A DNA stretch of 54,873 bases from an archaeon. Its GTDB lineage: Archaea > Nanobdellota > Nanobdellia > Pacearchaeales > GW2011-AR1. The number at the start of each line of letters is the position of its first letter. The stretch's first letter is position 1. Shown here piece after piece: positions 36,873-41,989 of the stretch. Position numbers and translations under genes: made by a program. The notes under the pieces were generated by a model, which was not told the origin of the DNA, ran no database searches, and saw nothing but the letters and a program-made list of their open reading frames with translations. The DNA lies in NCBI GenBank assembly GCA_018693315.1, contig JABHLR010000003.1, forward strand, positions 1 to 54,873, given 5' to 3'.

Positions 36873-36880
36873 TTTAAATA
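36873..36880 (+). promoter_or_regulatory. TATA box of nrdR-nrdJ
   Basis: TTTAAATA centred at 36876.5 predicts transcription start near 36902, giving a ~70-base leader before ATG 36974. The leader contains the two NrdR-box-like palindromes. Confidence 0.5.
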
Positions 36881-36906
36881 CTCTTTTGGTTAATGTTTTC
36901 TTACAA

Positions 36907-36954
36907 CTACAAGTAATTGTAGCAAAAAGGGGTGCAAGATACAATATCTTGTGT
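36907..36954 (+). promoter_or_regulatory. Paired NrdR-box-like palindromes
   Basis: Site 1 (36907-36922) is CTACAAGTAATTGTAG, a perfect 6+4+6 palindrome. Site 2 (36939-36954) is ATACAATATCTTGTGT, matching the bacterial NrdR consensus acaCwAtATaTwGtgt at 14 of 16 positions. Both hold TACAA-N4-TTGT, and the starts are 32 bases apart, the spacing of tandem NrdR boxes. They lie just after the predicted transcription start. Confidence 0.7.
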
Positions 36955-36973: not shown

Positions 36974-37414
36974 ATGAAATGTCCATATTGTACGGCGGTT
37001 GAGACGAAGGTTACTGACAAAAGAGACAGTGGGGCTCTAACCCGTAGGCGGCGTGAGTGTTTAAAGTGCAACAAGAGGTTTACAACTTATGAGAGGGTTG
37101 AGTTTGATTTGGCTATTATTAAGAAAAATGGTAGGCGAGAACAATTCGATCGTGACAAGCTGAGATATGGTATTGAAAAGGCTTTTGAGAAGTTGGATGT
37201 TAGTTCCAATAATCTTGATGCTATAGTTGATGATATTGTTGCAAAAGTTAGGAGGGTTGCAAAAGATAAAGATATTTTGAGCTCTCAGGTTGGGGATATT
37301 GTGATGAACAAATTGAAGAAAGTTGACAAGGTTGCATATATCCGATTTGCTGCGGTTTATCGGGAGTTCGCGGATATTGAAGAATTTAATGAGGAGATAA
37401 AAAAATTAAAATGA
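36974..37414 (+). CDS. nrdR: Transcriptional repressor NrdR
   Basis: 146 residues from ATG 36974, the usual NrdR start (MKCPYC). A zinc ribbon with two CxxC pairs (CPYC and CLKC), a Thr-Arg-rich loop GALTRRRRECLKCNKRFTTYERV and an ATP-cone domain (VEFDLAIIKKNGRREQFDRD...KLKKVDKVAYIRFAAVYREF) match the family over the full length. NrdR senses dATP/ATP and represses ribonucleotide reductase genes. It is mainly bacterial and occurs in only some archaea. The ATGA overlap with nrdJ shows that they are co-translated, so it controls its own operon. An upstream in-frame ATG at 36932 is not supported because it precedes the conserved start. Confidence 0.95.
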   Translation: MKCPYCTAVETKVTDKRDSGALTRRRRECLKCNKRFTTYERVEFDLAIIKKNGRREQFDRDKLRYGIEKAFEKLDVSSNNLDAIVDDIVAKVRRVAKDKDILSSQVGDIVMNKLKKVDKVAYIRFAAVYREFADIEEFNEEIKKLK

Positions 37415-40176
37415 GTCCAGAAAATACTAGTAATGTTGAGATAGAAAGATTTTTTACGAAAGATATACCTGGTGAGGTTTTCGATTCTATAGACTGGGAG
37501 AAGTCTGATATTGGAATATCTGATGATACTGGAAAAATTTTGTTTACACAGAAGGATGCTGAGTTTCCTTCTTTTTGGAGTCCGTTGGCGAGGAAGATAA
37601 CTTGTTCTAAGTATTTTTTTGGAGAGCAAAATTCTGAAGAAAGAGAGGGTGGACTTAAGGAGCTTGTTTGGAGAGTTACCTCGACGATGAAAGACTGGGC
37701 AGCGAAATATAATTATTTTAAATCTTCTGATGATCTTGAAAATTTTGAGAGAGAGTTGTCGTTTATTAATGTGAATCAGTTGATGGCGTTTAATTCTCCG
37801 GTGTGGTTTAATGTTGGAACTCATAAAGTGGAGAAGATTGATAACTTTAAATCTGGCGGGCAGAAGGATGCTTATGTTTTTGAAAATGGCGAGGTTGTTA
37901 AGATACCTATTGGGAAAGAATCTATGTATCCGCAAACTTCTGCGTGTTTTATTCAGAGTGTGGATGATACTATGGAAAGCATAATGGATCTTGCGAAAAA
38001 AGAAGCGCTTTTGTTTAAGCATGGATCTGGATCTGGAAGTAATATTTCGAGCTTGAGATCTTCTCGGGAAAAATTATCTGGGGGTGGATCTCCTTCTGGT
38101 CCGTTAGCTTATTGGGCGTTTTGGGATAAGGTCGCTGGAATTGTTAAGTCTGGTGGAAAAACGAGGCGTGCAGCGAAAATGGACATACTTAATATTAGTC
38201 ATCCGGATATTTTGGAATTTATAAATTCTAAGAGAAGAGAGGAGGAGAAGATGCATATGTTGATAGATAATGGAGTGGATTGGATGGAAGCTACTGAGAC
38301 TGTTTCTTATCAAAATACTAATATTTCGGTGAGGCTTAGTGATGATTTTATGGAGTCTGTTTTGAATAATAGAGATTGGAAAACTGTTCCGATACACAAT
38401 AAAGATATGGCTGACGAGATGCCAGTATATCCTGCGAAAATGCTTCTTGGTGAAATTTCTAATGGGACTCATTTTTGTGGAGATCCTGGGGTGCAGTTTG
38501 ATGACGCTGTGAATAAATGGCATACGTGTCCTAATTCCGGGAAGATTAATGCGTCTAATCCTTGTAGCGAATATATGTTTGTGGATAATTCTTCTTGTAA
38601 TTTGGCGTCGCTTAATTTGATGAAGTTTTTGAAGGAGGATGGTTCTTTTGATGTTGATTCGTTTTCGAATGTTGTAAGGATTACGGCGATAGCTCAGGAT
38701 TTGTTGATCGATAATTCTTCTTATCCGACTAAGGAGATTGCGGAAAATTCTCATAAATTTAGGCCGCTTGGTATGGGTTATGCTAATCTTGGTTCTTTGC
38801 TGATGTCCTTGGGGCTTCCTTATGATTCCGACGAGGGTCGTGCTGTTGCGGCTGTTATAACTGCGGCGTTGACAGGTAGGGCGTATGAAACTTCGACTGA
38901 ACTTGCGGAGTCGATTGGAACGTTTGAGGAGTTTTCAAAAAATAAGCAGCCCATGCTTAATGTTATAAAAATGCATAAGGATGCTTTGTTAGATATAGAT
39001 AAGGATAAGTTGCCTGAGGGATTTTTGGGTTTGCTTAAATATGCCGAGGGTGTTTGGCGTAGCGTTTTGGAGAGAGGAGAAAAATATGGTTTTAGAAATG
39101 CTCAGGCTACAGTTCTTGCGCCTACTGGAACTATCGGGTTTATGATGGATTGTGACACTAAGGGTATTGAGCCAGAGATTGGGCTTGTCCAGGTTAAGTT
39201 GCTTTCTGACGGTGGGATACTTAAGCTTGTGAATGGTACTGTGAAAAATGCTCTTGGCAAGTTGGGATATTCTTCTGACGATGTTGATAAAATTTTGGAG
39301 CATATTGAAAAAGAAGAAACTATTGAGGGTAGTATAATTAAGGATGAACATTTGCCTATTTTTGATTGTGCTAATAAACCAAAAAATGGGGCGAGGACTG
39401 TTAGTTGTGATGGGCATTTGAAAATGATGTCAGCTACTCAGCCTTTTTTGTCTGGTGCGATATCTAAAACTGTTAACCTTTCTGAGGATGCTACTGTCGA
39501 GGAGATTGAAAATGTTTATATGGATGCTTGGAGATTGGGCTTGAAAGCTGTTGCCCTGTATAGAGATGGTAGTAAAAGATTCCAGCCGCTTAGTTTTTCT
39601 AAGAAAGATAAGGATGGTGCTCAGGATTTTGAGAAGGGTGTGCCGAGGAGAACAAAACTTCCTAACACTAGAACTTCAATAACTCATAAGTTTAATATTG
39701 GAGGACACGAGGGTTATCTTACTTTTGGGTTGTACCCCGATGGTAAACCTGGAGAACTTTTTATAACAATGAATAAAGAGGGTAGCACTATTGGTGGTTT
39801 GATGGATACGGTTGGTACGTTGGTTTCTATTTCTCTTCAGTATGGAGTTCCTATTGAAGATGTGCTTAAGAAATTTAAGCATCAAAAATTTGAACCTAAA
39901 GGGATTATGTTTTCTGGTCATAGAAATATTAAGACTGCCGAATCTATAGTGGATTATATTGGGCAATTTATGGAGAAGGTGTTTGTTCGTGGGGAGACTG
40001 ATTTGGAGTTTAATGTTGACCTTTCTAGTGTGGAGAAGTCTGAAGAGGAAGAAGAGCTGGCTGGAGAGCCTGGTGGTTTTTGTACGACGTGCGGGACTCA
40101 GATGATTAAGAGAGGCCATTGTACTGAGGAGTGTCCTAGTTGTCACAATCAGACACAAAATGGATGTGGCGCTTAA
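37411..40176 (+). CDS. nrdJ: Adenosylcobalamin-dependent ribonucleotide reductase (class II)
   Basis: 921 residues. The catalytic core includes TSACFIQSVDDTMESI, GSGSGSNISSLRSSREKLSG, the active-site loop NPCSEYMFVDNSSCNLASLN (N-x-C-x-E, and the partner Cys in SSCN) and LAPTGTIGFMMDCDTKGIEPEI. The C-terminal redox tail carries CTTCGTQMIKRGHC and CPSCHNQTQNGCGA, a Cys-rich zinc-ribbon type. It reduces ribonucleotides using a B12 radical and needs no oxygen. A separate ATP cone at the N-terminus is not obvious; the first ~70 residues may be a reduced one. No B12 biosynthesis genes are in this window. It overlaps nrdR and is followed by a small Cys-rich gene. Confidence 0.95.
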   Translation: MSPENTSNVEIERFFTKDIPGEVFDSIDWEKSDIGISDDTGKILFTQKDAEFPSFWSPLARKITCSKYFFGEQNSEEREGGLKELVWRVTSTMKDWAAKYNYFKSSDDLENFERELSFINVNQLMAFNSPVWFNVGTHKVEKIDNFKSGGQKDAYVFENGEVVKIPIGKESMYPQTSACFIQSVDDTMESIMDLAKKEALLFKHGSGSGSNISSLRSSREKLSGGGSPSGPLAYWAFWDKVAGIVKSGGKTRRAAKMDILNISHPDILEFINSKRREEEKMHMLIDNGVDWMEATETVSYQNTNISVRLSDDFMESVLNNRDWKTVPIHNKDMADEMPVYPAKMLLGEISNGTHFCGDPGVQFDDAVNKWHTCPNSGKINASNPCSEYMFVDNSSCNLASLNLMKFLKEDGSFDVDSFSNVVRITAIAQDLLIDNSSYPTKEIAENSHKFRPLGMGYANLGSLLMSLGLPYDSDEGRAVAAVITAALTGRAYETSTELAESIGTFEEFSKNKQPMLNVIKMHKDALLDIDKDKLPEGFLGLLKYAEGVWRSVLERGEKYGFRNAQATVLAPTGTIGFMMDCDTKGIEPEIGLVQVKLLSDGGILKLVNGTVKNALGKLGYSSDDVDKILEHIEKEETIEGSIIKDEHLPIFDCANKPKNGARTVSCDGHLKMMSATQPFLSGAISKTVNLSEDATVEEIENVYMDAWRLGLKAVALYRDGSKRFQPLSFSKKDKDGAQDFEKGVPRRTKLPNTRTSITHKFNIGGHEGYLTFGLYPDGKPGELFITMNKEGSTIGGLMDTVGTLVSISLQYGVPIEDVLKKFKHQKFEPKGIMFSGHRNIKTAESIVDYIGQFMEKVFVRGETDLEFNVDLSSVEKSEEEEELAGEPGGFCTTCGTQMIKRGHCTEECPSCHNQTQNGCGA

Positions 40177-40196: not shown

Positions 40197-40508
40197 ATGA
40201 AAAAAAGTGTTTCTAGCGTTGAAGATTTTACTTTTGAAAATAGAAGAAAAAAGTTTTTGGATAAGTGTCCTTGTTATGCTGAAAATAAACCTTGTCATGA
40301 TATGCCTCCAAATGAGCTGAATTGTCTTTTGTGTTTTTGTCCGGAATATGATACGTCTAAAAAAGAGGGTGGTTGTAAAATTAAATCTAAAAGTGGGAAG
40401 TGGTTTTTTAGCGATAAGTTGCCGAAGGGTAAAATTTGGGATTGTAGCGATTGTGTTTATCCTCATAGAAAGGATGTTGTGAAAAAGTATTTGGATAAGA
40501 TTGAGTAA
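40197..40508 (+). CDS. Cysteine-rich small metal-binding protein
   Basis: 103 residues. CPCY, CHDMPPNELNCLLCFCPEY, GGCKIK and WDCSDCVYPH fit the small zinc-type Cys-rich domain (PF04071-like) with a final C-x2-C-x2-PH. AGGAG at 40181-40185 precedes the ATG by 11 bases. The domain has no defined role but is often seen near or fused to cobamide-related proteins; location after a B12-dependent reductase supports that link as an inference. It is probably cytosolic; no signal peptide is visible. Confidence 0.8.
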   Translation: MKKSVSSVEDFTFENRRKKFLDKCPCYAENKPCHDMPPNELNCLLCFCPEYDTSKKEGGCKIKSKSGKWFFSDKLPKGKIWDCSDCVYPHRKDVVKKYLDKIE

Positions 40509-40543
40509 GTGTCCGCATTATATATTTTTAACAATATAAATCC

Positions 40544-40551
40544 TTTAAAGT
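40544..40551 (+). promoter_or_regulatory. TATA box of the multi-TM protein gene
   Basis: TTTAAAGT, about 25 bases before ATG 40572. Confidence 0.45.
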
Positions 40552-40571
40552 TAGGGTAGCTGGTTTTTGAT

Positions 40572-41027
40572 ATGGATAAGCAAGTTGTGTTTTTTTTAAT
40601 TTTGTCTGTGTTTTTTATTTACAATGGTGCTGTGAAGTTTGATCCCATTTTGCAAATAGCGGGAATTTTGATGATTGTTTTTTTAATCTATGGTATGTTT
40701 TTTCACAAGGAGGATCCTAATCTTTCGAAGCTCAAGTATGAAAGTAAATTTGGTCTTATTGTGATTTTTGGTAATATAGATTTATTTTTTGGTTTGTTGC
40801 TTGTTTTGGAGAGTATACATGGAATTGTTCCTCATATTATTTTGTCTATTGCGGCTGTGTTTGTTTTGCTGAAGGCTTTGTTTTTTGTTTTTGGTGGAGA
40901 TATTGCAAGTATAATCGACACTATCGTGTCTTTGTTAATTATTGTTGATGCTCCTATTTTGTCTGAGTTGAAAATTGTTGTGGCGATATATTTTATACAA
41001 AAAGGTCTTTTGACTTGTTTTAGTTGA
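40572..41027 (+). CDS. Integral membrane protein of unknown function
   Basis: 151 residues with four or five hydrophobic helices: FFLILSVFFIYNGAV, ILQIAGILMIVFLIYGMFF, FGLIVIFGNIDLFFGLLLVL, HIILSIAAVFVLLKALFFVFG and IVVAIYFIQKGLL. There is no recognised motif, and the protein ends without a soluble domain. The promoter spacing suggests a leaderless mRNA. No link with neighbouring nucleotide-metabolism genes can be drawn from sequence. Confidence 0.65.
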   Translation: MDKQVVFFLILSVFFIYNGAVKFDPILQIAGILMIVFLIYGMFFHKEDPNLSKLKYESKFGLIVIFGNIDLFFGLLLVLESIHGIVPHIILSIAAVFVLLKALFFVFGGDIASIIDTIVSLLIIVDAPILSELKIVVAIYFIQKGLLTCFS

Positions 41028-41048
41028 TATGTTTGATTTAGTAGTTTT

Positions 41049-41056
41049 TTTAAATA
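41049..41056 (+). promoter_or_regulatory. TATA box of the 107-residue ORF
   Basis: TTTAAATA, about 24 bases before ATG 41076. Confidence 0.45.
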
Positions 41057-41075
41057 GGAAAATGGTTGTTTTGTA

Positions 41076-41399
41076 ATGCCATTTATGACGAGGGAGAGCT
41101 TCATAAGGGAGTTCAAATATACCCGGGTTAGAATGAGGAGGCTTGCTAGTCATGACTTGCATCCTGTGGCTGGGAATGATGCGGATGATATGTTTTATGG
41201 TTTTTGGAAGCATAGCGCTAAAAAGCGCATGAGGGGTTTTGGTAAAAATATTAGGAGCGTGAAGAGATTGCCGTTTTGTTTGTGTTATGTCCCTTTAAGG
41301 TTATCTAATACAATGAAACTTTTTAAGAAGAGAGATTCTAAATATTCTAGTTTTTATGATCCGGGAATAGATAGGTCAGACCCTTCTATTGCCCTCTAA
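41076..41399 (+). CDS. Basic hypothetical protein
   Basis: 107 residues, mostly Arg/Lys/Ser-rich (TRVRMRRLASHDLHPVAG, HSAKKRMRGFGKNIRSVKRL). No TM or signal peptide and no recognised motif. Support comes from the TATA box at the leaderless distance, an open frame of ~320 bases without overlap with other genes, and a stop just before the dUTPase promoter. It could still be a spurious frame. Confidence 0.5.
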   Translation: MPFMTRESFIREFKYTRVRMRRLASHDLHPVAGNDADDMFYGFWKHSAKKRMRGFGKNIRSVKRLPFCLCYVPLRLSNTMKLFKKRDSKYSSFYDPGIDRSDPSIAL

Positions 41400-41430
41400 A
41401 ATGGAAGTGGATGGTGTGGCACGATAATTA

Positions 41431-41438
41431 TTATAAAT
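41431..41438 (+). promoter_or_regulatory. TATA box of dut
   Basis: TTATAAAT, about 25 bases before ATG 41459. Confidence 0.5.
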
Positions 41439-41458
41439 GGTTTCGCTTTCTTTTTTGT

Positions 41459-41989
41459 ATGGTGACGATGAGGGTGAAAAAATTGAGAGAGGGTGCGGTT
41501 TTGCCGAAGTATGAACATGAGGGTGACGCTGGAATGGATATTTCTGCTTGTGGCAGTTTTTTGGAAGTTGGGACGAATGAGAAGAAGGAGTTTGATGATT
41601 TGGATGTTTATGTTTTGAGGCCCGGGAAAAGAGTGCTTGTTAAGAGCGGGATTCAGGTTGAGTTTCCGGCTGGTTATGAGTTGCAGATTCGTCCGAGAAG
41701 TGGGCTTGCTTTGAAGAAGGGGATTTCGCTTGTTAATTCTCCTGGGACTTTGGATGCTGGTTATAGTGGAGAGCTTGGAGTTATTTTGATTAATCATGGT
41801 GAGAATGCTTTTGAGATTCGGAAGGGCGATAGGATTGCACAGGCGGTTTTGAGTAAGTTTGAGTTTGCTGAGATTAGCGAGGTTGGCGATACTGGTGAGA
41901 ATGGTGGAACTGGTGGTGGGACTTATTTGAGCGAGACGATGAGAGCTGAAGGTGGGTTTGGTAGTAGCGGTGGGCACGGATCGTTATGA
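41459..41989 (+). CDS. dut: dUTP diphosphatase (trimeric dUTPase)
   Basis: 176 residues from ATG 41459; ATG 41468 is an alternative, while the upstream 16 codons of the open frame precede the promoter-predicted start. All five dUTPase motifs are present: EGDAGMDIS, IRPRSGLALKKG, NSPGTLDAGYSGELGVILIN with the catalytic Asp/Tyr, IRKGDRIAQAV and a Gly-rich C-terminal arm RAEGGFGSSGGHGS. It hydrolyses dUTP to dUMP and PPi, lowering uracil in DNA and feeding dTMP synthesis. The insertion EVGTNEKKEFDDLDVY in the second strand is slightly longer than in bacterial Dut. Next to nrdJ it completes a dNTP-supply group. Confidence 0.95.
   Translation: MVTMRVKKLREGAVLPKYEHEGDAGMDISACGSFLEVGTNEKKEFDDLDVYVLRPGKRVLVKSGIQVEFPAGYELQIRPRSGLALKKGISLVNSPGTLDAGYSGELGVILINHGENAFEIRKGDRIAQAVLSKFEFAEISEVGDTGENGGTGGGTYLSETMRAEGGFGSSGGHGSL

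Follow-up and report, generated by a model that had tools for sequence, protein, structure and literature searches.

The nrdR-nrdJ locus of this archaeon is very probably a self-regulated NrdR-ribonucleotide reductase (RNR) operon. By sequence, it encodes a true NrdR behind a paired NrdR operator, which in turn sits at a fixed distance from an archaeal promoter; this arrangement is conserved in relatives, and the same kind of site is found before RNR genes that are not linked to nrdR. The locus, part of a 54,873-nucleotide stretch of DNA (the window, meaning the whole stretch), can be added to the known NrdR regulon, in a lineage in which NrdR is common.

The nrdR gene (36974..37414, plus strand) encodes a 146-aa protein composed of a Zn ribbon and an ATP-cone. 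It scores 173.1 bits against the NrdR equivalog profile TIGR00244 (cut-off 124.65), covering positions 1-147 of 147, with the Pfam domains PF22811 at residues 1-40 and PF03477 at residues 47-134. Across 11 aligned archaeal NrdRs, the four Zn-ribbon cysteines (C3, C6, C29, and C32, arranged in two CxxC motifs) are invariant, and so are D15, R17, and R24-R27 (RRRR), the residues through which NrdR contacts DNA (PMC9110341). The nrdJ gene (37411..40176, plus strand) overlaps nrdR by 4 bp and encodes a 921-aa class II (adenosylcobalamin) RNR, assigned by NF005122 (1150 bits, cut-off 859), TIGR02504 (547 bits, cut-off 400), and Pfam; the sequence-only reading was thus right to see a genuine NrdR in an operon with nrdJ. 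A mechanical ORF call had placed the nrdR start at GTG 36932; it was rejected, as the conserved MxCPxC start corresponds to ATG 36974. With the start set there by homology, the second of the two boxes described below falls in the leader, outside the gene. Downstream of nrdJ, on the same strand (window 40197-41989), are genes for a dUTPase and for a zf-like protein rich in cysteine (PF04071); the locus thus groups dNTP genes.

The nrdR leader carries a TATA box, TTTAAATA (36873..36880, plus strand), followed by two palindromes, NrdR box 1 (CTACAAGTAATTGTAG, 36907..36922) and NrdR box 2 (ATACAATATCTTGTGT, 36939..36954). The TATA box precedes box 1 by 34 bp, start to start; the boxes are 32 bp apart, start to start, just as they had been read from the sequence, with a 16-bp spacer between them, and box 2 ends 19 bp before the nrdR start codon. 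Given the usual archaeal spacing, the position of the TATA box predicts a transcription start near 36903, a few bases before box 1, which puts the boxes at about +5 to +52; their earlier placement immediately behind an archaeal promoter therefore holds. By hand count, box 2 agrees at 14 of 16 positions, the figure given by the sequence-only reading, with the bacterial consensus acaCwAtATaTwGtgt, which reportedly goes back to Rodionov and Gelfand in 2005; box 1, the weaker of the two, agrees at 10 of 16. Both boxes keep the C/G pair, 9 bp apart (36910/36919 in box 1 and 36942/36951 in box 2), that is critical for NrdR binding in Streptomyces coelicolor (PMC9110341), and the 16-bp spacer falls inside the range of 14-17 bp (about 31-32 bp start to start) that NrdRs accept (PMC12051234). 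The pattern ACANNNNTGT does not match the boxes because its core is spaced differently, which is no evidence against them. Between the boxes lies a Shine-Dalgarno (SD)-like motif (AAAAGGGGTG, GGAGGT, or GAGGT), at 36926-36935 in the window and also present in leaders of relatives, with about 30-40 nt separating it from the start codon; an upstream short ORF that would use this motif was considered and rejected, its frame being inconsistent among relatives when compared by eye.

Is this geometry kept in related genomes? NrdR is present in 70 of 90 near relatives, and the search for paired boxes that the sequence-only reading had suggested finds them, mostly 31-32 bp apart, in 62 of 67 nrdR leaders (the window's included) at p<=0.02 against each leader's own shuffles, which preserve base composition only, in counts that take no account of relatedness; 5 of the 67 fail the shuffle test. 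The absence of the palindromes from relatives, which the sequence-only reading had named as grounds for refuting it, is thus not what these genomes show. Measured from the best single box, the second box (C..G core) is offset by -32 in 40 of the 67 leaders and by -31 in 11, any other offset being found in at most 10. An alignment of the genus shows conservation of the TATA box, of the two NrdR boxes, and of part of the spacer; the stretch from the TATA box to box 1 is variable in sequence and near-constant in length. Of 39 leaders from beyond the genus, about 25 have a TTTAAATA-like box that starts 32-34 bp ahead of box 1; no other distance is seen in more than 4.

Perfect paired sites are found before RNR genes even when nrdR is elsewhere. 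A survey of 148 genomes yielded 15 fetched loci with a perfect site, 13 of which precede nrdR and/or an RNR gene. In seven genomes of one family (f62), nrdR and the perfect site are on different contigs: each genome has one perfect site, with an RNR gene adjoining it, and the leader of nrdR itself lacks boxes in the five of these genomes that were checked. One of the seven RNRs at these sites (genome G305) carries an insertion that looks intein-like by eye; intein-like insertions are also seen in the RNR genes of loci L209 and L234. The arrangement of the seven genomes recurs in G092, where the perfect site precedes the class III RNR gene nrdD, and in G159, G172, G184, and G220, where it precedes class I/II-type RNR genes. 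The two exceptions among the 15 are in G199 and G115. NrdR was not detected in G199, whose genome also contains another, one-mismatch site; its perfect site (L230, G199:C39:3573-3618) lies before a gene that resembles, by eye, an iron permease of the FTR1 type. Sites with at most one mismatch are present in 38 of 115 NrdR-bearing genomes versus 2 of 33 NrdR-less ones (Fisher p 0.0015, with kinship ignored and two surveys merged by hand), and six NrdR-less genomes contain no site within two mismatches. Within the genus of the window's archaeon, nrdR is followed in most relatives by a gene for class III NrdD, and in the window and at loci L041 and L069 by one for class II NrdJ. The repressor and its operator persist while the RNR class behind them changes, even within a genus: the predicted dATP switch stays put and the enzyme is exchanged.

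Could the paired boxes be something other than an NrdR operator? That they are chance palindromes of an AT-rich leader is barely credible. Such leaders do yield weak palindromes easily, and in the 674-kb host genome (87% complete) the strict box-pair pattern has matches with three mismatches that are about as frequent as those of a reversed control pattern. Yet the same search finds a single 0-mismatch site, the one in the nrdR leader, and no site with one or two mismatches across the 674 kb; none of 100 shuffles of the window's leader, which keep base composition only, reaches the score of the box pair; and one spacing is conserved over dozens of genera. An alternative with a little more to recommend it, although still improbable, is that the boxes are the operator of another palindrome-binding regulator or hairpins of the leader RNA, with NrdR acting elsewhere or having lost its sites. 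Each box is palindromic and could form a short RNA hairpin, and 21 of 58 leaders carry the SD-like motif in the spacer that separates the boxes, versus about 4% of same-size upstream windows. However, hairpins require no fixed distance from one copy to the other or from a copy to the TATA box, boxes 31-32 bp apart are what an NrdR tetramer requires, both boxes retain the critical C/G pair, and the perfect sites that stand before RNR genes do so even with nrdR far away.

If the boxes are an NrdR operator, where did an archaeon obtain both? The sequence-only reading saw a lateral gain of NrdR together with its sites, and this claim was not supported: a recent transfer from bacteria into the lineage of this archaeon is, in our estimate, slightly less probable even than a foreign regulator or RNA hairpins. 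In its favor, published accounts treat NrdR as mainly bacterial and call it rare in archaea (PMC9110341, PMC12176259), and in the NrdR tree candidate-phyla bacteria interleave with archaeal NrdRs. However, this supposedly bacterial protein is encoded by 272 of the 371 genomes sampled from the phylum, or about three quarters (186 of 243 among the good genomes), and it is found in two further DPANN phyla, those of Burarchaeum (10 of 30 genomes) and of an Aenigmatarchaeota genome (19 of 30); the geometry of operator and TATA box is kept over many genera. The NrdR phylogeny, another check that had been proposed, groups the window's protein with its own family (98% SH-aLRT), and a constraint of the archaeal NrdRs to one clade (51 rows) is not rejected (AU p 0.7) in a test that omitted long-branch rows and haloarchaea. 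NrdR thus appears to be old in this archaeal phylum, and the phylum-wide presence, the own-family grouping, and the fact that a single archaeal clade is not rejected together make a recent import by this archaeon unlikely. Given the interleaved candidate-phyla bacteria, DPANN archaea and bacteria may have exchanged NrdR in ancient times, one way or the other; the tree, with about 150 columns and 52 of 90 forks under 80, does not give the direction of exchange. Haloarchaeal NrdRs (Natronomonas pharaonis, Halomicrobium mukohataei; PMC3019208) resemble the window's in being archaeal and encoded beside RNR genes; unlike it, they accompany class I RNRs, are encoded on plasmids, and sit apart in the tree on a separate long branch. 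Their class I RNR genes have been attributed to transfer from bacteria (PMC3019208), and the box pairs on the four plasmids checked are weak or unclear.

How would NrdR act at this promoter? In the favored model of a self-regulated operon, NrdR would carry dATP and ATP and, as a tetramer, occupy the two boxes downstream of the TATA box (about +5 to +52) and kink the DNA, keeping the archaeal RNA polymerase from recruitment or from promoter escape. Plentiful dATP would then turn off nrdR and the overlapping nrdJ, and dominance of ATP would turn them on. That binding depends on nucleotides, that it represses, and that the response runs in this direction are all carried over from bacterial NrdRs; by this analogy, dATP/ATP-sensing control of RNR, as already suggested from the sequence, is the likely role. 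A Pfam and profile search found no ATP-cone in the window's NrdJ, and the NrdR switch may therefore be the main dATP feedback on RNR in this cell.

The nrdRJ operon of S. coelicolor (PDB 7P37, 7P3F, 7P3Q; PMC9110341) offers a parallel. It shares with the window the nrdR-nrdJ order, a class II RNR, an NrdR built of a Zn ribbon and an ATP-cone, and a pair of palindromic boxes separated by about three turns of the helix (31 bp in S. coelicolor, 32 bp in the window), each with a C/G pair 9 bp apart. S. coelicolor NrdR meets a bacterial promoter and polymerase, whereas the window's NrdR would act at an archaeal promoter of the TATA type, whose predicted start precedes both boxes. An operator at a fixed distance from an archaeal TATA box would provide a clean case of one repressor serving two unrelated transcription machineries. 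In Escherichia coli, NrdR controls three RNR operons, and nrdR is not adjacent to its targets; by contrast, the window's nrdR heads its operon, and the genome has one perfect site. The window's NrdR matches solved NrdRs by sequence, the closest being the E. coli structures (PDB 9FVR, 9FXK, 9FZF, 9GEX; PMC12176259), with 139 bits over the whole protein.

Twelve genomes from this archaeal class (loci L101-L112) have the repressor and the enzyme joined: an NrdR Zn ribbon is in frame with the class III RNR NrdD. Ten of these genomes were identified by Pfam and two (L103 and L106) were recognized by similarity; the fusions from the twelve fetched loci are 755-1047 aa long and represent eleven family codes (for example, L102:2417-5062 and L105:2269-4533). 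The usual layout is a Zn ribbon, an ATP-cone, a second ATP-cone, and NRDD; in L105 and L110 (the latter identical to L025), the Zn ribbon is placed directly on the single ATP-cone of the enzyme. Compared with shuffles, boxes are present upstream of the fusion at p<=0.004 in nine loci (L101, L102, L103, L105, L106, L108, L110, L111, and L112) and are weak in L107 (p 0.02), and no upstream boxes were found in L104 and L109; in the genome of L104 (G200), a perfect site precedes a second RNR. In each fusion genome a single NrdR-type Zn ribbon was found, so a separate NrdR is not seen. We give an even chance to the idea, drawn from domain architecture and boxes, that the fused enzyme is its own dATP-sensing repressor, with activity and transcription governed by one polypeptide. 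With the fused forms, repression of a gene by the enzyme that it encodes becomes testable. A search of the open-access literature found no description of NrdR-NrdD fusions or of archaeal NrdR boxes.

The NrdD parts of the fusions vary. L101 is another RNR gene with an intein-like insertion, and its NrdD part contains a LAGLIDADG domain. In L108, L109, and L112, NrdD stops before the C-terminal glycyl-radical motif, which is carried by a small ORF directly behind; in L106, the motif is in a small ORF about 1.3 kb behind the fusion ORF. These arrangements may reflect either a split-off glycyl-radical domain of class III RNR or frame errors in the assemblies. The motif in the small ORFs reads RVVGY or RITGY, and in L109 and L112 an SD-like motif precedes the ATG of the small ORF.
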